DNA of 64,000 nucleotides from Salinigranum rubrum (GTDB taxonomy: Archaea > Halobacteriota > Halobacteria > Halobacteriales > Haloferacaceae), in assembly GCF_002906575.1 (NCBI RefSeq), contig NZ_CP026309.1, positions 1,488,001 through 1,552,000 on the forward strand, written 5' to 3'. This document shows positions 9,146 to 20,283 of the stretch, one piece after another. The translations under genes and the position numbers were made by a program. The notes below the pieces were generated by a model, which did not search any database, had not been told where the DNA came from, and saw nothing but the letters and a program-made list of their open reading frames with translations. Each line of letters starts with the position of its first letter. Positions within the stretch are counted from its first letter, which is position 1.

Positions 9146-11875
9146 ATGGCTATCGACGACGCTGACCCTGCCGGCGCGACTCAGTCGGAGTCAGCGCCGT
9201 CGCAGTCGGCCGGAGCGACTGTCGGCGAGTACACCTGGGAGCAGTACCTCCGCGAGTACGGCGACTCCGGGGACGCCGACGCCGCTGCGACGATGCGACG
9301 TTCCGGCGACATCGACTGGGACGCTATCACGGCTGAGGATCGGGCGGTCGCCGACCTGGGCGTCCACCCCACCGAAATCGAGGACCAACTGGCCGCGGCA
9401 GCGGCGGCGGCCGCCCGTGTCGACGACGGGATCGAACCGACCACCGACCTCTCGGACCCACCGGTCGCGAAGGACTGGTACGCCGCGGAACATTTCGAGT
9501 CCGACCACCCGGAGACGACCCTCGACGACGCGCTCGGCTTCGACGCCGAGGAGGTCGAGGGCGTCCTCTCACACGCGGGGGGCCTGGCCGAGGAACTCTC
9601 GGACGTGGTCGACCAGCGAACCGTCTCGGTCCAGGAGGACTTCGACGAGGACGCGTTCTTCCGGACCGACGAGGGACACTCGACCGTCGTGACGCGGTAC
9701 GACCTCGAGAAGACCGTTCCGCTCGCGAAGAAGGGGCACTTCCGCGAGATCGAGCGCTACTGGGTGAACGAACCGTACTCGTTCGTCATCATCTTCCACT
9801 CGACCAAGGAGAACGAGAAGAAGTACTACGTGGTCCAGCCGTACATGAACCGGATCGAAGACGACCTCGTGGACTACCTCACGGGGAAGCTTCGGACGGC
9901 GATCAAGTACTCCGACGACGACGTTATCGCGGCCGGCACCGAGGACAGAGGACGCATCATCGAGGCCGAGACGCTCAACCTCCTCGACCGCTACGGGCTC
10001 TTCTCGGCGCCGGACGCCGGGATCGGTGCGTCCGACGATGGGGCGGCTGGCTTCCTCCGGAGCGGCCCGCTCGGCGCGCTCGCGGACCTCTTCGGCCTCG
10101 GCGGCGACGACGAACCCGAGCCGTCGGCGGCGACCGCGCTCGGCGTCGGCCAACTCGACGGCATCGCGGCCCGACCCGAATCGGCCGTGCTCGAGGAGGA
10201 CGCGAAGCAACTCAACGAGTACCAGGTCGAGAAGCTACTGTACTACCTCCGCCGTGACTTCATCGGCTACGAGCGCATCGACGGCATCAAACACGACATC
10301 AACGTCGAGGACATCTCGTGTGACGGGTACAACTCGCCCGTCTTCGTCTACCACTCCGACTACGAGCAGATCATCTCCAACGTCTACCACGGGAAGGCGG
10401 AACTCGACGACTTCGTCGTGAAGCTCGCCCAGCGCTCGGGGAAGGGCATCTCCAAGCGGAGCCCGCAGGTCGACGCGACGCTCCCCGACGGCTCGCGCGC
10501 CCAGTTGACGCTCGGCCAGGAGGTGTCGGACCACGGGACGAACTACACCATCCGGCAGTTCAAGGACGTCCCGTTCACCCCCATCGACCTCATCTGCTGG
10601 AACACGTTCTCGCTCGACGAGATGGCCTTTCTCTGGCTCTGTATCGAGAACCACAAGTCGCTCATCTTCGCCGGCGGGACCGCGTCGGGGAAAACCACTT
10701 CGCTGAACGCGGTGTCGCTGTTTATCCCCTCGAACTCGAAGATCGTCTCCATCGAGGACACCCGCGAGGTGGAACTGCCCCAGCGCAACTGGATCGCCTC
10801 GGTCACTCGGCCGTCGTTCGCCGAGGACGACGGCGGCGACGTCGACGAGTTCGCCCTGCTGGAAGCGGCGCTCCGACAGCGGCCCGACTACATCGTCATG
10901 GGCGAGATTCGTGGCGAGGAGGGGCGCACGCTCTTCCAGGTCATGTCGACGGGCCACACGACGTACACGACGTTCCACGCCGACTCGGTGGGGGAGGTCC
11001 TCAAGCGCTTTACGACCGAGCCGATCAACGTCTCGAAGACGATGTTCACCGCCCTGGACCTCGTCTCCATCCAGACCTCCACCAGAGTCGGCGGCAACAA
11101 GGTCCGCCGGAACAAGTCCCTCACGGAGATCAACCACTACGACGCGGAGAACGACGAGATCAACGTCCAGGACGTCTACCAGTGGCAGGCGGAGACGGAC
11201 GAGTTCCTCAAGATGGGCAACTCCAACACCTTAGAGGAGATCATGTTCGACCGCGGGTGGACCGCGGAGAAGCTCGACCGGGAGCTGTTCAAACGCCAAC
11301 TCGTCCTCGCGTACCTCATCGACCGCGAACTGAACTCGTACGCGCAGGTCGCGGCGACGTTCCAGGCGTTCATCAACGACCAGGAGACCATCCTCTCGCT
11401 CATCGCCGACGACCGCCTCGAACAGTCGCTCGAGGACCTCCGCGAGATGGAGTCGGTCCACATCAACATCGAACCCGAGAAGGAGGCGATGGTGCCGCGC
11501 CCCTCGCCGGACACGGAGACCGCCGCGCTCGCCGAAGGTATCCTCGGTCGTGCGGAGGAGTCGCTGCTCCCCGAGTACCGGGGGAACGAGGCGGCGGACG
11601 TCGTGGCGGCGCTCGCGAGCATCGAGCCGGCGACCGACGTGACCGTCGGTCGCGACGAGACGGGACCGACGGCCGTCGGTGCGGACGGCGGCGACGCGTT
11701 CACCGAGGCGCTGGAGGACGCCACGGGGGGACGGGCGATAGCGACGGCGGGACTGGCAACGGGGGCGGCGTCGGAAGCGACGCCGGGGGCGAGCGCCCGG
11801 ACGCGGCCGAGGAGACCGGCGGTTTCGGCTTCGGCTTCGACGAGTCGGACGAGTCCGACGGAGCGTGACAGATGA
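9146..11875 (+). CDS. pilB: Type IV pilus assembly ATPase (PilB/GspE/TadA family), 3' end frameshifted
   Basis: Cytoplasmic ATPase that powers pilin extrusion through the membrane platform encoded next. The large acidic N-terminal region (1-about 330) is typical of haloarchaeal PilB. The secretion ATPase core has Walker A GGTASGKTTS near 510-519, an Asp-box SIEDTREVELP and Walker B YIVMGEIRGEE near 582-592, followed by STGHTTYTTFHAD. After the G6 run at 11725-11730 the listed frame turns Arg/Ser-rich. Adding one G gives instead an acidic tail ending TGGFGFGFDESDESDGA with a stop at 11866-11868, just before pilC. The real protein is therefore probably about 907 residues with that tail. First gene of the pilus operon. 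Confidence 0.93.
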   Translation: MAIDDADPAGATQSESAPSQSAGATVGEYTWEQYLREYGDSGDADAAATMRRSGDIDWDAITAEDRAVADLGVHPTEIEDQLAAAAAAAARVDDGIEPTTDLSDPPVAKDWYAAEHFESDHPETTLDDALGFDAEEVEGVLSHAGGLAEELSDVVDQRTVSVQEDFDEDAFFRTDEGHSTVVTRYDLEKTVPLAKKGHFREIERYWVNEPYSFVIIFHSTKENEKKYYVVQPYMNRIEDDLVDYLTGKLRTAIKYSDDDVIAAGTEDRGRIIEAETLNLLDRYGLFSAPDAGIGASDDGAAGFLRSGPLGALADLFGLGGDDEPEPSAATALGVGQLDGIAARPESAVLEEDAKQLNEYQVEKLLYYLRRDFIGYERIDGIKHDINVEDISCDGYNSPVFVYHSDYEQIISNVYHGKAELDDFVVKLAQRSGKGISKRSPQVDATLPDGSRAQLTLGQEVSDHGTNYTIRQFKDVPFTPIDLICWNTFSLDEMAFLWLCIENHKSLIFAGGTASGKTTSLNAVSLFIPSNSKIVSIEDTREVELPQRNWIASVTRPSFAEDDGGDVDEFALLEAALRQRPDYIVMGEIRGEEGRTLFQVMSTGHTTYTTFHADSVGEVLKRFTTEPINVSKTMFTALDLVSIQTSTRVGGNKVRRNKSLTEINHYDAENDEINVQDVYQWQAETDEFLKMGNSNTLEEIMFDRGWTAEKLDRELFKRQLVLAYLIDRELNSYAQVAATFQAFINDQETILSLIADDRLEQSLEDLREMESVHINIEPEKEAMVPRPSPDTETAALAEGILGRAEESLLPEYRGNEAADVVAALASIEPATDVTVGRDETGPTAVGADGGDAFTEALEDATGGRAIATAGLATGAASEATPGASARTRPRRPAVSASASTSRTSPTERDR

Positions 11876-13899
11876 GTCTCGAATCACAGAACGGCCTCGA
11901 CGGCAGCACCGACGCGCTGGGTGACGCGTTCTACCCGGTGTACCAGTTCCTGTTCGACGAGAACAGCGACTTCGTGGGTGACGTCGAAGAGCGCCTCGAA
12001 CAGGCGCGGATGGGCGAGAACGTCGAGTTGTACATCTCCCGCGCGCTCGCAATCGGCGTGCTGCTCGGCGGGACTCTGTGGATCCTCGGGACGCTCATCG
12101 GCTTCGGCCTGGTCCAGTTCGGCGTCCTGACCGAGGAGGTCGTCAGCCTCGGTATCCCGGTTCCCGACGAGGAGACCGCCGCGACGCTCTCGGCCATCGC
12201 CGTCCCCGTCGCCGTCGGGATCATGGGCGTCGTCTTCGGGAGCATCGGCTTCGGCATCGGCTTCGGCACGCTCGTCGCCATCCCCTACTCCCGCGCGTCG
12301 GCCCGGAAACGCGAGATAAACATGCTGCTCGCGGACTCGGTGTCGTTCATGTACGCCCTCTCCGTCGGGGGGCTGAACCAGCTCGAAATCCTCGAGGCGA
12401 TGGCCAGGGCCGAGGACACCTACGGCGAGGTCGCTCGGGAGTTCCAGAGCATCGTCCAGGAGACGGAGTACTTCGGGACCGACTATCGAAACGCGATCCG
12501 CCAGCAGGCGATCGTCACCCCCAGCGACGACCTCTCGCAGTTCCTCACCGACATGCTCTCCATCGTCAACTCCGGCGGTGACATGCAACGGTTCCTCGCG
12601 GACAAGAAGGAGAAACACCTCCGCACGTCGAAGCAGGAACAGGAGATGACGCTCGAGACGCTGGAGCTGTTCGGCGAGATGTACATGACGCTCTCGCTGT
12701 TCCCCCTCCTCCTCATCATCATCCTCGTCATCATGTCGATGCTGGGCGAGGCCCAGGACATGCTGCTGTTCGGGACCATCTACCTCCTGACGCCGCTCAT
12801 CGGCTTCGGCTTCCTCGTCCTCGTCTCCACGGTGAAACAGGACGAACCCGGCGACGGCTACCTCCAGCTCTCGGACGACCCGGACCCCGTCACCCAGAGC
12901 GGCCGGGACGGGGCGCTGAAGCTCGGGCTCATCAACGGCTTCGTCGGGGAGTTCGCGCTGTTCTCGCACGTCAAGAACCGCGAACTGCTCCACAACGTGC
13001 GCGGCATCCTCGCGGCCCCGCACATCTTCTTCCGCGACAACCCGATGTACACGCTCGCGCTGACGGTCCCGCTGGCGCTCGTGTCGCTCGTCGTCCCGGT
13101 CGCGCTGGGAGTCGCTCCGACCAGTTGGGACGCGCTGGTCGCCCGCCCCGTCTGGGGGACGTTCGTCTGGGTCTACCTGCCGATGTACATCGTCGTCCTC
13201 CCGCTCGCCGTGTTCTACGAGTGGAACGTCCGGCGGCGCAACTCCATCACCGGAAAGCTCTCGGAGAACCTCCGGAAGCTCTCCTCCGCGAACGACACGG
13301 GCCAGACGCTGCTCGAATCGGTCCGGACGGTGTCGTCGACCTCCTCGGGGAAGCTCGCCGACGAGTTCGACGTCATCTACGCGAAGGTCAACTACGGGAC
13401 GAGCCTCCGTGAGGCGCTCATCGAGTTCAACAACAAGTACCACATCCCCCGACTCGCGCGGACCATCAAACTCATCTCGAAGGCGCAGGAGGCGTCCTCG
13501 CAGATCACGGACGTGCTCTCGACGGCCGCGCAGGCGTCGGAGAACCAGGACGACATCGAGCGCGAGCGCCGCTCGCGGACCATGATGCAGGTCGCCATCA
13601 TCCTCATGACCTACTTCACACTCTTGGCCGTCATGGCCATCCTGAAGACGCAGTTCCTCGACGTGATGGCCGGGCTCACGGAGCAGGCCAGCAGCGGCGG
13701 GGGCGGCGGCGGGAGCCAGTTCAGCGGCGGTATCGACCCGAACCAGCTCTCGCTTCTGTTCTTCCACGGCGTCACCATCCAGGCGATGATCTCGGGGCTC
13801 ATCAGCGGCTACATCCGGACGGCGGACGTCCGGTCGGGGCTCAAGTTCACCCTCGTCCTGATGACGGTCGCGCTCGCCACGTGGACGGTGGTGGGCTGA
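11872..13899 (+). CDS. pilC: Type IV pilus membrane platform protein (PilC/TadC, T2SSF domains)
   Basis: A 675-residue multi-spanning protein that anchors the ATPase and guides pilins across the membrane. Two repeats of the T2SS-F type are visible: helical cytosolic segments (about 140-265 and 445-565) each followed by hydrophobic helices (about 270-325 and 565-600). Additional membrane segments lie at about 58-82, 100-140 and 395-455, and a final pair near 625-675. A Gly/Ser loop sits near 610. The start lies four bases after the repaired pilB stop, and the stop overlaps the next ATG (TGATG), so translation is probably coupled. Confidence 0.93.
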   Translation: MSLESQNGLDGSTDALGDAFYPVYQFLFDENSDFVGDVEERLEQARMGENVELYISRALAIGVLLGGTLWILGTLIGFGLVQFGVLTEEVVSLGIPVPDEETAATLSAIAVPVAVGIMGVVFGSIGFGIGFGTLVAIPYSRASARKREINMLLADSVSFMYALSVGGLNQLEILEAMARAEDTYGEVAREFQSIVQETEYFGTDYRNAIRQQAIVTPSDDLSQFLTDMLSIVNSGGDMQRFLADKKEKHLRTSKQEQEMTLETLELFGEMYMTLSLFPLLLIIILVIMSMLGEAQDMLLFGTIYLLTPLIGFGFLVLVSTVKQDEPGDGYLQLSDDPDPVTQSGRDGALKLGLINGFVGEFALFSHVKNRELLHNVRGILAAPHIFFRDNPMYTLALTVPLALVSLVVPVALGVAPTSWDALVARPVWGTFVWVYLPMYIVVLPLAVFYEWNVRRRNSITGKLSENLRKLSSANDTGQTLLESVRTVSSTSSGKLADEFDVIYAKVNYGTSLREALIEFNNKYHIPRLARTIKLISKAQEASSQITDVLSTAAQASENQDDIERERRSRTMMQVAIILMTYFTLLAVMAILKTQFLDVMAGLTEQASSGGGGGGSQFSGGIDPNQLSLLFFHGVTIQAMISGLISGYIRTADVRSGLKFTLVLMTVALATWTVVG

Positions 13900-14423
13900 T
13901 GGCACCCCTGCGGCCGCCGTCAGCGGGACAGAGAGCGACGCCGGCTGTGAGTCGCCGTGACCGTGACCGGGGACAGACGACCATCGACTTCGCCGTCGGG
14001 GCGACGCTGTTCCTCCTCACGATGGCGTTCGTCTTCGTGTTCGTCCCCGTGATGTTCGAGCCCTTCGCGACCAGTCAGTCCGACCCGCTCGTCGCCGACC
14101 GCGTCGCCAACCGCCTGGCGACCGACGTCCTCGGCACCCCCGCGAACCCGTACGTCCTCAACGCGACGTGTACGACGGCGTTCTTCGCGAACAGCGCGCC
14201 GCCGTCGGGCTGTTCGTACGCGTACGACACGGCCAGCGACCACCCGAACCTGGCGCTCGGCGTCGACGCCGAGACGAGGATCAACGTGACCGTCGTCGAC
14301 TCCGCCGGGTCCGTCGCGTTCGGCGCGGGCGCGGACCGGACGAACGCCCGCGACGTCATCACGGCACAGCGGCGGGTGCTGTACGACGGCCAGTCGTACG
14401 ACCTGTTCGTCAGGGTGTGGTGA
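13899..14423 (+). CDS. Pilin-like protein 1 of the pilus operon
   Basis: 174 residues. A basic N-terminus is followed by DRGQTTIDFAVG and a hydrophobic segment (about 35-55), then a Thr/Asp-rich exterior domain with two cysteines (TCTTAFF and SGCSYAY) that could form a disulphide. This tripartite N-terminus (charged, short polar motif, hydrophobic) resembles archaeal prepilin signals and is shared by the next five proteins, which suggests all are minor pilins or pilus-assembly factors. The start ATG 13899 overlaps the pilC stop. Confidence 0.8.
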   Translation: MAPLRPPSAGQRATPAVSRRDRDRGQTTIDFAVGATLFLLTMAFVFVFVPVMFEPFATSQSDPLVADRVANRLATDVLGTPANPYVLNATCTTAFFANSAPPSGCSYAYDTASDHPNLALGVDAETRINVTVVDSAGSVAFGAGADRTNARDVITAQRRVLYDGQSYDLFVRVW

Positions 14424-14426
14424 ACG

Positions 14427-15059
14427 ATGTGGGAACCGAGGCAACGCACGCGACGACCACGACTCCGGACGAGCAGCCGCGGCCAGGCCCACACGCTGGA
14501 GGCGTTCGCCGCGGCGACGATCCTGCTCGCGAGCATCGTCTTCGCCCTGCAGGTGACGGCCGTGACGCCGCTCACCGCGTCGACGTCGAGCCAGCACATC
14601 GAGAACCAGCAGGAGGCCGTCGCCACCGGCGTCCTCGCCTCCGCCGCGGAGAACGGCACGCTCAAGCCGACCGTCCTCTACGTGAACAACTCGTCCGGGA
14701 ACTTCCACGGCAACACGTTCGAGGGGCAGTACGTCTCCGGCGGACCGCCGACCCCATTGGGCGAGACGCTCAACGAGACGTTCCTCGACCGGGGCATCGC
14801 GTTCAACCTCTACGTCCACCACCGGACGAGCGACCGGACGGTCCGCCGGAAGACGGTCGTTCGGATGGGCGGGCCGAGCGACAACGCCATCTCCGCGCGG
14901 TGGCGGGTGACGCTGTACGACGACGACGTGCTGTACGCCGCGGACAACACCCCGACGACCCACACGCTCGCGAACTCGACGACGTTCTACGCGTCGGACA
15001 TCTCGCCGGGGACGCTGTACAACGTCCTCGAAGTGGAGGTGGTCGTGTGGCGGATGTGA
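14427..15059 (+). CDS. Pilin-like protein 2 of the pilus operon
   Basis: 210 residues with the same plan: Arg-rich start, SSRGQAHTLEAF, hydrophobic helix (about 27-47), then an extracellular domain with many Asn-x-Ser/Thr sites (NNSS, NETF, NSTT) suitable for N-glycosylation. No catalytic motif is seen. It starts three bases after the previous stop, and the next gene begins inside its 3' end. Confidence 0.8.
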   Translation: MWEPRQRTRRPRLRTSSRGQAHTLEAFAAATILLASIVFALQVTAVTPLTASTSSQHIENQQEAVATGVLASAAENGTLKPTVLYVNNSSGNFHGNTFEGQYVSGGPPTPLGETLNETFLDRGIAFNLYVHHRTSDRTVRRKTVVRMGGPSDNAISARWRVTLYDDDVLYAADNTPTTHTLANSTTFYASDISPGTLYNVLEVEVVVWRM

Positions 15060-16144
15060 GGCGGCCGCCGACGCGCCCCCGGCGACAGCGCGCGAGCAGC
15101 GACGGCAGCGACGGCACCGGCGGTCGCAGCCGAAGACGCGGACGCGGACGCAACTCCGACTTCGACGACGACCGCGGCCAGTTGTTCCTCGTCGGGGCGC
15201 TCTCGCTCGCCGTTCTGTTCGTCGGTTTCGCGCTGCTTTTGAACACCGCCATCTACACCGAGAACCTCGCGACCCGGAACACCGACCCGGGGACCGACCC
15301 CTCCATCAGCTACCGGGCGGCTGCCGAGGACGCCGCGCGGGAGCTCATGATCCGGGAGAATCGCAACGGGACGGACCCCACGTGGGACGAGAACACGCAG
15401 TGGTACGAATCGAGCGTCGAGGCGTGGAGCGACAGCGCCGGTCTCCACGCCGCGCGACGCGCCCGGGTCGCGTCGGTCGCCGTCGACTCGACGAACGGGA
15501 CGCGGTTCCAGCAGACCAACGCCTCGCGCAACCTCACGAACCGGAACTACGCCGCGGACTGGACCCTCGGCAACAACCCCTCTGCCGTCCGAGACGCCAG
15601 TCTCACGATCAACGCGGACTCGCTTCCCGAAACGAACCGCTCGAACGTCCTCGGACTCACGCTCGGGTTCGACGACCCCTACGCCGTGGCGTTCGACGAC
15701 ACCGACGGCGGCAACACCTGGCACGTGTACGTCTACGACGACAGCGACACCGGCGGCGACGACGTGACCGTCCTCGTCGACGACGGCACAACCGAACAGG
15801 AGTGTACCCACGTCGGACCAGCCGCACACGTCGACCTCTCCAACGGGAGCATCAACGGGAGCGCGTGCTCGGCGTTCGCCCTGCTCGACCTCCCCGACGA
15901 CGCCGTCGACGACGAGGACATCCGACTGCGCTTCGAGAACGGCGACCAGGCGACCGGGACATACGACATCAAGGTCGCCGAGGGGGCGGACATCAGCGGC
16001 AACGTCTACGACAACGAGGCCGACGACGACGGCGCGGCGTTCGCCACGGCGATCATCTACGATGCCGACGTCACCATCACCTACGAGAGCACCGACGTCT
16101 CCTATCGGACGACGGTCCGCATCGCCCCGGAGGAGATACGATGA
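15047..16144 (+). CDS. Pilin-like protein 3 of the pilus operon
   Basis: 365 residues from GTG 15047, which overlaps the preceding gene by 13 bases; a later GTG at 15056 is the alternative. After an Arg/Gly/Ser-rich head comes DDRGQLFLVGALSLAVLF and a membrane helix (about 43-65), with NTAIYTENLATRN right after it, a motif typical of haloarchaeal pilus-operon proteins. The exterior domain is rich in Asp, Asn and Thr with several N-glycosylation sites, and has two cysteines (TEQECTH, GSACSAF). The long frame upstream of the GTG is a shadow of the earlier genes. Confidence 0.78.
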   Translation: MADVRRPPTRPRRQRASSDGSDGTGGRSRRRGRGRNSDFDDDRGQLFLVGALSLAVLFVGFALLLNTAIYTENLATRNTDPGTDPSISYRAAAEDAARELMIRENRNGTDPTWDENTQWYESSVEAWSDSAGLHAARRARVASVAVDSTNGTRFQQTNASRNLTNRNYAADWTLGNNPSAVRDASLTINADSLPETNRSNVLGLTLGFDDPYAVAFDDTDGGNTWHVYVYDDSDTGGDDVTVLVDDGTTEQECTHVGPAAHVDLSNGSINGSACSAFALLDLPDDAVDDEDIRLRFENGDQATGTYDIKVAEGADISGNVYDNEADDDGAAFATAIIYDADVTITYESTDVSYRTTVRIAPEEIR

Positions 16145-16686
16145 GTCCGCCGCGTCCCCGTGGTTGCACTCGCGGTCCTCGCGGCCGGCCTGGTCGCGGT
16201 CGCGGGGGGCAGAGGCGACGCGCGCTTCCGTTCGCTCGGGACGACCGTGCGGTCTCGACGACGCTCGCGTACGTCCTCTCGCTCGGCATCGCGAGCCTCC
16301 TCATCTCCGGGTTGATGTTCGCCGGCAGCGGCTTCGTCGAGAGCGAGCGCGAGCAGGTCATCCGCTCCGAGTTGGTGGTGGTGGGCCAGACGCTCGTCGC
16401 GGACGTCGAGGGGGCCGACCGCCTGGCGTCGACCATCGACGGGACCGTCAGCGTGCGGTCGTCGCTGCCCCGCCGCGTCGGGAGTTCGGCGTACACCATC
16501 ACGCTGACCGACCAGGGCGGCGGCGTCACCGAGGTCACCATGACCGCGGCGTCGGTGGACATCTCGGTCGCCCTCCGACTGGTGACGAACACCCCCGTCG
16601 CGGAGGGGACCGTCGAGGGGGGCGAACTCGTCATCGTCTACGACGCTGCCGACTCCCCGCCCGCACTGGAGGTGCAGCGAGCGTGA
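16141..16686 (+). CDS. Pilin-like protein 4 with an archaeal prepilin motif
   Basis: 181 residues. The motif RAVSTTLAYVLS at about 36-47 followed by a 20-residue hydrophobic helix matches the archaeal type III signal (basic residue, Ala/Gly, Val, Ser) cut by PibD-type prepilin peptidase. The leader is unusually long and Arg/Pro/Gly-rich, so the true start could be further in, but no other ATG or GTG lies close before the motif. The mature part is a small beta-rich domain. ATG 16141 overlaps the previous stop (ATGA). Confidence 0.8.
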   Translation: MSPPRPRGCTRGPRGRPGRGRGGQRRRALPFARDDRAVSTTLAYVLSLGIASLLISGLMFAGSGFVESEREQVIRSELVVVGQTLVADVEGADRLASTIDGTVSVRSSLPRRVGSSAYTITLTDQGGGVTEVTMTAASVDISVALRLVTNTPVAEGTVEGGELVIVYDAADSPPALEVQRA

Positions 16687-17435
16687 TGGACAGCCGCGGC
16701 GTCAGCGACACCCTCGGCTTCGTGTTCGTCTTCGCGCTGGTGCTGTCGACGGTCGGGCTCACCTTCACGTTCGGCTACAGCGGCCTCAAGGACACGCGCG
16801 ACTTCGAGCGGCTCAACAACGCCGAACGCGCGTTCGACGTGATGGGCGACAACTTCGACGACATCGTCCGCCGCGGCGCGCCGAGCCGCGCGACGGAGGT
16901 GAAGGTCGCGGATGCGCAGTTGGGACTCGAGGACGCGACGACGGTGAACGTCACCGTCACGAACACCTCGGGCGTGAAACAGAACGTCCAGTACGACATC
17001 CAGCCGGTTGTCTACGAGGCCGGCGGCGGCCGCATCGTCTACTCGAACGGTGCGGTCTTCCGCGAGGACCCCGGCGGAGCCGTCGTGATCCGCCACGCGG
17101 AGTTCGTCCTCCGACAGGAGCGGGTGCTGCTCCCCGTGGTGAACACCCGCGGGGGAGGCGGGACGGAGTCCATCGGCGGGACGACGACCGTTCTGGTCCG
17201 TGCGACGAGCCCCGACGGCCAGCGGCAGAGTTTCGGGTTCGATATCGCCCGCACCGAGCCCCAGTCGGAGGTCATGGTGAACGTCACGAGTCCGCGTCCG
17301 GCGGTCTGGGAGCGCGAACTCAGCCGGTACGACGACGCCGACTGCGACATCGACGGAAACACCGTCTCCTGTACCGTCTCGAACCCCGAGCGCGTGTACG
17401 TCCAGGAGACGCTGATCGGCATCACGTTCGAGTGA
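16686..17435 (+). CDS. Pilin-like protein 5 with an archaeal prepilin motif
   Basis: 249 residues starting MDSRGVSDTLGFVFVFALVL, a short leader, an RGVSDT processing motif and a hydrophobic helix to about residue 28. The exterior region has beta-strand character, several N-glycosylation sites (NVTVTNTSG) and a C-terminal pair of cysteines (ADCDIDGNTVSCTV) spaced for a disulphide. The start overlaps the previous stop by one base (TGATG); an in-frame GTG sits one codon before it. Confidence 0.82.
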   Translation: MDSRGVSDTLGFVFVFALVLSTVGLTFTFGYSGLKDTRDFERLNNAERAFDVMGDNFDDIVRRGAPSRATEVKVADAQLGLEDATTVNVTVTNTSGVKQNVQYDIQPVVYEAGGGRIVYSNGAVFREDPGGAVVIRHAEFVLRQERVLLPVVNTRGGGGTESIGGTTTVLVRATSPDGQRQSFGFDIARTEPQSEVMVNVTSPRPAVWERELSRYDDADCDIDGNTVSCTVSNPERVYVQETLIGITFE

Positions 17436-17438
17436 ACT

Positions 17439-19130
17439 ATGACAGACGACACCCACCGCGAGCGACGACCGAACCGACAGCCCGAATCGGACGACCGCAG
17501 CCGACGTCGCGCGCGGCGACGAGGACGAACGCCCGCGAGCGACGCGTCCGGTCCGCCGCGCCCGCCGTGGCTGTATCGACTGGTGCGCGACCGGAGCGGC
17601 CAGTCGACGACCATCGGCGTCGCACTCATGCTCGCCATCGCCGCCATCGGGGTCACGGCCGTCGTCGCCCTCGGCGGGACGGCGCTGACCGACTCACAGA
17701 CGTCCGTCGACATCCAGCGGACCGAACACGCGATGACGCTGCTCGACTCCCGCGGGGCGATGGCCGCGCTCGGCGAGTCCGAGAGCCAGGAGGTCACGCT
17801 CAGCGGGAGCGGCGACGGGTCCTATCGGGTCGCCTCCGATTCGGGCTGGATCCGCGTCGTCCACAAGAACTTCACCGACCCGACCCCCTCCGAGGAGGTC
17901 ATCTTCAACCGGTCCCTCGGGGAGGTCCGGTACACCCGGGACGACGCCGTCGTCGCCTACCAGGGCGGCGGCGTCTGGCGCACGCAGGACAACGGGACCG
18001 TGATGATCTCACCCCCCGAGTTCCACTACCGCGACCAGACGCTGACGATGCCGCTCGTCCGTGTCGACGGCTCGGGGAGCGCGTCCGGGCGGGTCACCGC
18101 CGAGGTGACGCCGCTCGCCACCGGAACGGACGTCCAGAGAATCTTCCCGAACGAGACTGCGAGCACGGCCGACGGGCCCGGTGCGCCCTACGACGACGCC
18201 GGCGACACCAGCTACGACAACCCCGTGACGAACGGCACCGTCGTCGTCACCGTCCACAGCGAGCACTACCGCGGGTGGGCGACGTACTTCACGGAACGCA
18301 CCGACGGCTTCCTCTCGGTCGACCACGCGAACCGGACGGCTTCCATCGAACTCCGAACGCTCGCGGGCGCGCCGGGGGCGTTCGACATGCCACTGGTGGG
18401 CGAGTCGTTGGAGACGCCGAGCGTCGCCAGACAGCACAACGTCTCGCAGTTCGAGCTGCAGCTCGCGCCGGATTCCTCGAACGCGAACGCGTTCAATCAG
18501 CTCCACTGGTCGATGTACTACCAGGGAACCGACGGCCAACAGTTCGAGATTCATTTCGCCGGGCAGGGACGGTGTGACTCGGCGACGGCCGACGGGTTCA
18601 CCAAGGGGAGCACCGAGCTCAGCGTCTCCGTCTACTACCGGCACAACAGCTCCGCGCCCTCCGAAGAGTGGGAGCGCGTCCTCTCGGACCCCCACGTTCA
18701 GACCCGCCCGGTCCACGTCGACTGCAGCACCGGCGCGCCGCGACTCGACGCCGACCTCACCTCCTCGTTCGACATGGAGTACACCGACATCGACATCCAG
18801 GGGAGCGACAACAAGTGGCACTTCGGCAACGAGATCAAAGACCAGGACGTGCCCGACGAACTGACCTTCGACCAACACGCCGACGACCCCGGCGACGACT
18901 ACGACGAGGGGAGCGACAGCGAGGAACTCGGCTTCCTCGTCAACCACTACTTCTCCCGGCTCGGGCCGGACTTCCAGCTCACCGTCGACGCCGGCCCCGG
19001 TGGGAGCCAGAACCGCGTCAGCGAGGAGGCCTCCACCGGCGTCCTCATGTACGACACCATCGACGGCGAGGAGTTCATCCAGTTCCTCCACATCACCGAG
19101 AACGAGGTGCGGGTCGAACTGAACGGCTGA
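17439..19130 (+). CDS. Large pilin-like protein 6, end of the pilus operon
   Basis: 563 residues. A long Arg-rich cytosolic head is followed by DRSGQSTTIGVALMLAIAAIG and one membrane helix (about 57-80). A large extracellular domain follows, rich in Asp, Thr and Ser, with many N-glycosylation sites and two cysteines (QGRCDSA, HVDCSTG). It could be a tip or minor pilin, or an adhesin-like component; no enzyme motif is seen. It starts three bases after the previous gene and is followed by a hairpin, so it is the last gene of the unit. Confidence 0.8.
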   Translation: MTDDTHRERRPNRQPESDDRSRRRARRRGRTPASDASGPPRPPWLYRLVRDRSGQSTTIGVALMLAIAAIGVTAVVALGGTALTDSQTSVDIQRTEHAMTLLDSRGAMAALGESESQEVTLSGSGDGSYRVASDSGWIRVVHKNFTDPTPSEEVIFNRSLGEVRYTRDDAVVAYQGGGVWRTQDNGTVMISPPEFHYRDQTLTMPLVRVDGSGSASGRVTAEVTPLATGTDVQRIFPNETASTADGPGAPYDDAGDTSYDNPVTNGTVVVTVHSEHYRGWATYFTERTDGFLSVDHANRTASIELRTLAGAPGAFDMPLVGESLETPSVARQHNVSQFELQLAPDSSNANAFNQLHWSMYYQGTDGQQFEIHFAGQGRCDSATADGFTKGSTELSVSVYYRHNSSAPSEEWERVLSDPHVQTRPVHVDCSTGAPRLDADLTSSFDMEYTDIDIQGSDNKWHFGNEIKDQDVPDELTFDQHADDPGDDYDEGSDSEELGFLVNHYFSRLGPDFQLTVDAGPGGSQNRVSEEASTGVLMYDTIDGEEFIQFLHITENEVRVELNG

Positions 19131-19188: not shown

Positions 19189-19383
19189 TTACTCGTCGTC
19201 TTCGTCGTCCTCGTCGCGCATCTCGTCGAGCCGTCCCACGAGGTCGTCCGTCGAGACGTCGGACTCGACGCTGACCTGGCCGTCGTGGTCGTGCTCGTGG
19301 ACGCTGACGCCGTCGTCCTCGCCGTCGCTCGTGTCCTGTTGCTGACGCTCCTGCTCGGATTCGTCGTAGCTGCCGAAGCCCAT
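19189..19383 (-). CDS. Small acidic conserved haloarchaeal protein (DUF5786-like)
   Basis: 64 residues starting MGFGSYDESEQER, a strongly conserved haloarchaeal N-terminus that I associate with the DUF5786 family. The rest is almost entirely Asp, Glu, Ser and His, ending in a short helix (DDLVGRLDEMRDE). The start is placed at ATG 19383 because the upstream extension is basic and unlike the family. Cytoplasmic; function unknown. Confidence 0.8.
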   Translation of the reverse strand: MGFGSYDESEQERQQQDTSDGEDDGVSVHEHDHDGQVSVESDVSTDDLVGRLDEMRDEDDEDDE

Positions 19384-19470: not shown

Positions 19471-20283
19471 CTACCCGAACGCGCCCAGACTCGACTGCAG
19501 GTCGCGCTCGACCGCTCCCTCGCGGAGTTCGTACCCGACGAGGTCGCGGAGGTCGACCGCGTAGGTGCTGCCGGCGTGGTCGAGCACCAGGATTCGCCCT
19601 TTCGTTCCCCGCACGGTCCCGGTCGCGATGGTCTCTCCCACGGGCCGTTCGGTGAGGTCGAGGCCGTAGTCGAACGCGAACCGGTCGAGGACGTCGAACC
19701 CGTCCAGCACCGCCTCCCAGGCGGCCTCGTCGACGCGCTCGCCGAGGCCGTCCATCTTCGTGTCGACGCGGACGAAGTCCGAGAGCTCCGTCGCGATCTC
19801 CGCTTCGAGTTCTCGGGCGATGCGACCGTTCGAGACGGTGTAGAGGTGTGCGGCCCGGTCGGCACCCTGCTCTCTCAGTCGGGTTTCGAGCCGCCACAGC
19901 TTCGTCACGCCCACCTTGAACGAGTCGGGGGAGAAGGCGGCGAGGTAGACCGCGTGGTCGTCGTAACAGTCCATCTCGTCTTTGAGACACGTCCCGGTAC
20001 AGCGCGCACAGACCCACGTCGAGCGGTGGCTGGCGCAGTACGGCGCCTCGGGTTCGCCGCAGGCGACGTGGGCGCGCGAGTCCCGCCCGTAGACGGTTCC
20101 GGCGCAGTGGCGGTCGCCGAGCGTCCACGAGAGCGTCGTCCCGGGGTCGAGCGAGACGGCGTCGACCTCGTTCTCGGACCCGTCCCCACCCGGTTCCGCT
20201 GCGGCATCCGAGCGGGAGTCGGAGCCGGAGCCACGGCTCACGAGGAGCGTTCCCGAGACGGTGTCGTAGCCGACGACCTGCAC
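19471..20283 (-). CDS. DUF2797 family protein with cysteine cluster
   Basis: 270 residues. A beta-rich first part is followed by a metal-ligand-rich region: HCAGTVYGR, HVACGEPEAPYCASH and CARCTGTCLKDEMDC (about 59-106), then a helical domain starting YLAAFSPDSFKVGVTKLWRLETR that resembles a GIY-YIG-like fold seen in this family. The cysteine spacing suggests zinc binding. Role unknown; it is widespread in haloarchaea and actinobacteria. It is preceded by a divergent-free gap and transcribed away from the epimerase gene's end. Confidence 0.8.
   Translation of the reverse strand: MQVVGYDTVSGTLLVSRGSGSDSRSDAAAEPGGDGSENEVDAVSLDPGTTLSWTLGDRHCAGTVYGRDSRAHVACGEPEAPYCASHRSTWVCARCTGTCLKDEMDCYDDHAVYLAAFSPDSFKVGVTKLWRLETRLREQGADRAAHLYTVSNGRIARELEAEIATELSDFVRVDTKMDGLGERVDEAAWEAVLDGFDVLDRFAFDYGLDLTERPVGETIATGTVRGTKGRILVLDHAGSTYAVDLRDLVGYELREGAVERDLQSSLGAFG

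Follow-up and report, generated by a model that had tools for sequence, protein, structure and literature searches.

The closest described relative of the system reported here is the PilB4-type pilus system, defined in 2016 with the HVO_1160 locus of Haloferax volcanii (Makarova et al. 2016, PMC4858521). Its ATPase carries extra N- and C-terminal domains, and the locus has a pilin set of its own, in which the signature minor pilin, arCOG02911, is duplicated and 250–550 amino acids (aa) long. In the main text of that paper, there are 0 mentions of CARDB or lectin, and vWA, in the available part, concerns other proteins. Here, we describe a locus of this type from Salinigranum rubrum (GCF_002906575.1), located at coordinates 9146–19130 of the window, i.e., the 64,000-nucleotide stretch that was analyzed (NZ_CP026309.1, positions 1,488,001–1,552,000, forward strand). 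Whereas arCOG02911 is a typical pilin in the available part of the 2016 account, the last gene of the present locus encodes a modular one. The locus is probably a PilB4-type haloarchaeal pilus operon with five core pilins and a modular sixth pilin, which would serve at the tip as an exchangeable adhesin. At the level of sequence, the gene set, the canonical processing sites in five of the six pilins, the conservation, and the modular architecture are established.

Gene content and conservation of the operon

The locus consists of pilB, pilC, and six pilin-like genes, all co-directional on the + strand and either overlapping their neighbors or 3 bp apart. A preliminary description of this DNA had recognized six tightly packed pilin-like genes behind PilB and PilC, and its coordinates, motifs, and lengths (563 residues for the last protein) are all correct. 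The PilB-type assembly ATPase (9146–11875) has 909 aa, its T2SSE match (E = 7.6e-30, residues 435–647) being flanked by long extensions at both termini, and the PilC/TadC-type membrane platform protein (11872–13899; 675 aa) matches T2SSF in two stretches (E = 1.9e-26). The processing sites of the six pilins contain, in gene order, RGQTT, RGQAH, RGQLF, RAVS, RGVS, and SGQST, each followed by a hydrophobic stretch. The five core pilins are a DUF7287 pilin (13899–14423; site RDRG↓QTTIDF; mature form 149 aa; PF23958, E = 2.7e-43), a DUF7288 pilin (14427–15059; SSRG↓QAHTLEA; mature form 191 aa; PF23959, E = 3.2e-66), a DUF7261 pilin (15056–16144, with a GTG start; DDRG↓QLFLVG; PF23922, E = 1.7e-07), a DUF7266 pilin (16141–16686; DDRA↓VSTTLA; PF23928, E = 4.3e-25), and a DUF7289 pilin (16686–17435; DSRG↓VSDTLG; mature form 244 aa; PF23960, E = 9.4e-62). 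The DUF7261 match covers only positions 2–120 of the 169-position profile, and this pilin has an apparent internal insert. Since all six pilins, including the modular DUF7289–DUF7308 protein, exceed the Pfam gathering thresholds, the set is not a chance assemblage, and six Pfam families beside pilB and pilC bear out the earlier claim of a pilus operon. NCBIfam provides no name for any of the six, and the Pfam model Class_IIIsignal finds no match in the genome.

The presence of pilB and pilC next to a pilin gene set identifies an archaeal type IV pilus operon. The window PilB scores 28.4 bits on PilB3_C, just above the cut-off of 27, and 21.5 on PilB3_N, below the cut-off, whereas a PilB3-like copy elsewhere in the genome (574 aa) reaches 86.7 and 68.7, respectively. 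By length and by these far lower profile scores, the window PilB is distinct from PilB3. The genome also encodes an archaellum ATPase and, at another locus, DUF7289, DUF7263, and DUF7261 pilins. In type, the locus in the window corresponds to the PilB4 system, a widespread kind of operon that has already been described. The likeness lies in a halobacterial PilB with extra terminal domains and in a pilin set of its own, and it is drawn by description, not by direct alignment with HVO_1160. The H. volcanii genome has matches to both DUF7288 and DUF7308, and DUF7289 presumably corresponds to arCOG02911. Detection of H. volcanii PilB4 has been reported for cells in GMM medium (PMC7305310, available part). 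No paper naming these DUF families was found in our literature search.

Of 145 genomes in the class, 138 contain DUF7288, 43 contain DUF7308, and 92 contain DUF7305; at the phylum level, DUF7288 is found in 130 of 196. Among the named genomes of the collection, Salinigranum salinum is the closest relative, with 88% identity in DUF7288. Of 94 loci (60 chosen by hand and 34 from a named scan), 85 have the five core pilin types in one direction, 78 have co-directional pilB and pilC, and 69 have the entire seven-gene set; these counts are lower bounds owing to the use of 14-kb stretches, second copies, and short contigs. The preliminary description had asked whether the six-gene set is conserved with pilB and pilC. 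This is so for the core five with pilB and pilC, but an in-line pair of DUF7289 genes with DUF7308 on the last one, as in the window, occurs in only 4 of 95 loci, the window included. In two Halolamina loci (L132 and L134), the core DUF7289 frame amounts to only 107 aa in mature form, suggesting a frameshift or sequencing error.

The predicted structure of the DUF7287 pilin (predicted local distance difference test score, pLDDT, 92.2) shows a long N-terminal helix and a late four-strand sheet, an outline that appears closer to bacterial pilins than to the Ig-like archaeal ones. The family consensus contains two conserved cysteines. Foldseek returned ribosomal proteins as the best match to this model (E = 0.027), and VIA-align returned a sensor kinase domain (Z = 7.3) with no pilin among the matches listed, which is still compatible with a pilin fold. 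The DUF7287 profile gave two coiled or helical matches of chance type among solved structures. In a head-to-head comparison of the other pilins, only DUF7287 and DUF7288 were faintly suggestive of a relationship (23.7%).

The modular sixth pilin and its additional domain

The last gene (17439–19130, +), which starts 3 bp past the preceding stop, encodes a 563-residue protein with the site RDRSG↓QSTTIG and an uncharged residue at −2. It combines an N-terminal pilin module, DUF7289 (residues 54–287; PF23960, E = 3.9e-21), with a separate DUF7308 domain (residues 328–539; PF23985, E = 1.9e-57), and is, by these matches, a modular pilin. The long pilin has its DUF7289 stalk in common with the core one (hhalign, 99.6%). 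The possibility that DUF7308 is a second copy of the DUF7289 head was rejected (hhalign, 1.4%). Neither this architecture nor modular pilins in archaea were found described in the literature searched.

Most loci with a second DUF7289-type gene have it on the opposite strand, converging on the operon. Over the 95 loci, a core DUF7289 gene in line with the operon is accompanied by a convergent DUF7289/DUF7308 gene in 32 and by a convergent second DUF7289 gene without DUF7308 in 22. The mature core DUF7289 pilins have a median length of 244 aa, compared with 484 aa for the proteins with DUF7308 and 560 aa (range 238–1241) for the convergent proteins without it. When 32 of the convergent genes were scanned, all 32 matched DUF7289; 23 also matched DUF7305, three Bactofilin, two VWA, two an ice-binding-like adhesive domain, and one CARDB, while three were short and module-free. 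A DESGS motif resembling a metal-ion-dependent adhesion site is present in L093 and L095. A locally built DUF7305 profile gave the same count as Pfam (23 of 32); because it extended into the stalk and hit DUF7308 proteins as well, its domain boundaries were not used. In three loci (L037, L042, and L072), it is the DUF7308 pilin that runs in line and the short DUF7289 pilin that converges on the operon, an arrangement that looks like an inversion of the whole convergent pair.

Two observations bear on where the module is placed. A profile of the C-terminal strand was built from 85 core pilins, and its best window was sought in 69 long proteins. By chance, the C-terminus would be the best window in about 1.6 of the 69; it was so in 51 (38 of the 40 with DUF7308 and 13 of the other 29). 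The controls gave 8/95, 27/94, 6/87, and 7/94, against 5.8, 4.3, 3.0, and 6.3 expected. In the model of the mature DUF7308 protein (mean pLDDT 81.1; predicted template modeling score 0.60), the structural matches end at residues 483–500, and the last predicted strand spans residues 495–508 (19083–19124). Taken together, the recurrence of the C-terminal strand of module-free DUF7289 pilins in the long proteins and the end point of the structural matches in the model suggest that the module interrupts the pilin head ahead of its last strand.

The module region itself (mature residues 256–488; 18366–19064) is predicted to be a β-sandwich. All 50 rows listed by VIA-align for the DUF7308 protein fall on it: 41 are members of the galectin family, eight are GH32 C-terminal domains, and one is a sialidase, a lectin-like grouping read from the entry titles of candidate chains that Foldseek had pre-selected. 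The best row has a Z score of 7.0 and a root-mean-square deviation of 3.9 over 142 residues. In a viral structure library, the protein matched an uncharacterized phage protein (E = 1.1e-04, template modeling score 0.17) and some entries with ConA-like names at E = 0.0048 or weaker. A galectin-like or lectin-like fold of DUF7308 may, thus, be taken as a weak lead from the model.

DUF7308 and DUF7305 tend not to share a genome: they occur together in 10 of 145 genomes against 27.3 expected, a count that ignores phylogeny. On a tree of the stalks of 69 proteins, the module types require four changes, the minimum for five states; the modules therefore appear to be inherited with their stalks and seldom shuffled, and frequent shuffling was rejected on the same ground. 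The DUF7308 proteins nest within the DUF7305 stalks with a support of 94 (quick tree, midpoint root), which hints at one replacement. At least three changes of orientation were counted on this tree.

A second modular pilin of 676 aa (L148:4547–6577, −; site DRA↓QADVLG) stands alone in the same genome beside an apparent trpD; it contains a DUF7305 match and a THLHLSVNEI strand, after which come a Pro/Thr-rich linker and another domain. The DUF7261 pilins of these loci have two mature sizes (about 100–150 aa in 13 of 87 and 250–350 aa in most others), and many end in a similar strand, as would a second pilin type with an optional insert. Downstream of the operon, the window contains two convergent genes, encoding a small acidic DUF5786 protein (19189–19377, −) and a DUF2797 protein (19471–20283, −). 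The archaellum genes (two archaellins and an ArlI-like ATPase) start about 0.5 kb past the window end (C1:1552471–1561000 of the same genome).

Processing sites and alternative explanations

According to the available part of PMC4371748, G, A, or S at −1 and a charged residue at −2 matter for prepilin processing, the latter being critical in archaea, while PibD of H. volcanii is little stringent at +1 and +3. Its Table 1 gives the Epd pilin sites KGQV, KGQL, KGQI, and RAQI, and an acidic +5 residue is described there as a bacterial-type feature found only in a subset of archaeal pilins. In the present loci, the combination of R or K at −2, G, A, or S at −1, and Q at +1 is kept in 95/95 DUF7287, 95/95 DUF7288, and 88/88 readable DUF7261 pilins (278/278 in total). 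Arg occupies −2 in 94/94 readable DUF7266 and 132/132 DUF7289 pilins, where +1 is mostly Val (75/94 and 93/132, respectively). Two acidic positions are invariant, i.e., Asp at +5 of DUF7287 (95/95) and Glu at +6 of DUF7288 (95/95). Five of the six window pilins have a charged −2 residue, G, A, or S at −1, and a hydrophobic helix next. The DUF7308 protein has Ser at −2 and Arg at −3; among 40 readable DUF7308 proteins, −2 is Arg in 27, Thr in eight, and Ser in five, and the 13 deviants all read RDR[ST][GA]↓Q. Judged from these sequences, SG↓Q is a real, inherited departure from the rule at −2.

The preliminary description had held that most of the six pilins lack the classic signal and that four of them may be processed by a different rule or make up an assembly scaffold. 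The first statement does not stand, since RGQ is an ordinary archaeal prepilin site: the two archaellins of the same genome carry it (NRG↓QVGIGTLIVF), and its PilA-like pilins have RA↓VSPVIG. A second rule was reportedly needed in Methanococcus maripaludis, where FlaK does not process precursors with Gln at +1 and EppA is required (PMC4371748, available part). In the Salinigranum genome, a single A24 peptidase was detected; this, the archaellin sites, and the reported laxity of H. volcanii PibD at +1 speak against a separate rule for the RGQ pilins, which was rejected. Because the R/K-G/A/S↓Q pattern is strictly kept and the archaellins share RG↓Q, three of the four genes need no second rule, and thus no new peptidase rule has to be invoked for them; only SG↓Q is truly off-consensus, with an uncharged −2 residue in 13 of 40 DUF7308 proteins, the window's included. 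An assembly-scaffold role for some of the six is possible as a candidate reading, but as an account of all four genes, another processing rule or a non-filament scaffold is very improbable.

Two other explanations concern the last gene. All six pilins could be ordinary minor pilins of the shaft or base, the large one being non-adhesive, e.g., an S-layer anchor or assembly primer. Such a placement would agree with the available text of PMC4858521, in which minor pilins of archaea are assigned a position close to the base, on the model of the archaellum, or inside the filament, and both DUF7287 and DUF7288 have acidic residues close to the N-terminus, as do bacterial core pilins. However, in relatives, the gene at this position can carry adhesive-type vWA or CARDB domains, and, by analogy with the pilins treated in the available part of PMC8179133, a bulky inserted module would be poorly suited to the filament body; we regard this explanation as rather unlikely. 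Less likely still is that the last gene encodes a separate pilin outside this pilus, which came to lie in line with the operon in this lineage. Its opposite strand in most relatives, the three orientation changes on the stalk tree, and the solitary long DUF7289 pilin of L148 would fit this explanation, yet the gene adjoins the operon in both orientations and, in the window, follows the preceding stop after 3 bp.

In the explanation that we consider probable, that of five core pilins and a modular tip pilin, a single PibD-type peptidase would cut the six prepilins before the hydrophobic helix, and PilB and PilC would assemble them into one filament. The modular pilin would be added first, thus sitting at the tip and binding a surface or glycan. 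Its tip placement is proposed on account of the bulky module, which appears to sit ahead of the final strand of the head. Several points weigh against this explanation. The strand test is weaker in convergent DUF7289 proteins without DUF7308 (13/29), the DUF7288 control is also above chance (27/94), and related rows are not independent. A second DUF7289-type gene was not seen in 24 of 95 loci and is, thus, not obligatory. The Z score of 7.0 falls short of 8, the value under which the tool itself advises caution, a Foldseek search of the model against the PDB gave no match at E ≤ 0.001, and the DUF7308 sequence matched no solved structure; a glycan ligand would be the weakest step of the explanation. 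Ser at −2 could mean poor cleavage of the DUF7308 protein. Finally, the modules are not freely shuffled, so that "exchangeable" refers to whole-gene lineages rather than to frequent swaps.

Comparison with bacterial modular pilins

If the modular explanation is true, the sixth gene provides a candidate tip adhesin for a haloarchaea-wide pilus and a function for several families of "unknown function". What archaeal pili bind would become testable in H. volcanii, which has both DUF7288 and DUF7308. More tentatively, haloarchaea may equip one conserved stalk, at one conserved operon position, with different adhesive heads (lectin-like DUF7308, solenoid-like DUF7305, vWA, and CARDB), as an independently reached counterpart of bacterial modular tip pilins with the module placed in the head. 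Versatile pilus tips would then have arisen in both bacteria and archaea through the attachment of the same domain types to pilins.

The nearest bacterial parallels are PilB and PilC of Streptococcus sanguinis, both of which have been proposed or modeled at the pilus tip (PMC8179133 and PMC9934059, available parts). According to the same sources, PilC has a ConA-like, galectin-like lectin module that binds glycans and can be superposed on galectin-7, and PilB has a vWA domain. In these proteins as in the haloarchaeal ones, a small pilin module bears a bulky module, adhesive in S. sanguinis; the vWA type appears in both, and so, on the weak structural lead, may the galectin-like type. The S. 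sanguinis proteins differ in being IPR012902 pilins with the module at the end, attached via a short loop, whereas the present proteins are archaeal DUF7289 pilins with the module apparently before the last strand. The survey in PMC8179133 covered only proteins carrying IPR012902, a bacterial motif, and the word "archaea" is absent from its main text. A module inserted in the pilin head has been described for ComZ of Thermus, where it is a β-solenoid, and for GspK of type II secretion (PMC8179133, available part). The long DUF7289 pilins would resemble these in the head insertion, and three of the 32 match Bactofilin and two the ice-binding-like adhesive domain. They differ in that their insertion is deduced from sequence patterns and a predicted model, and the likeness to ComZ and GspK is one of architecture, without a demonstrated sequence relation.
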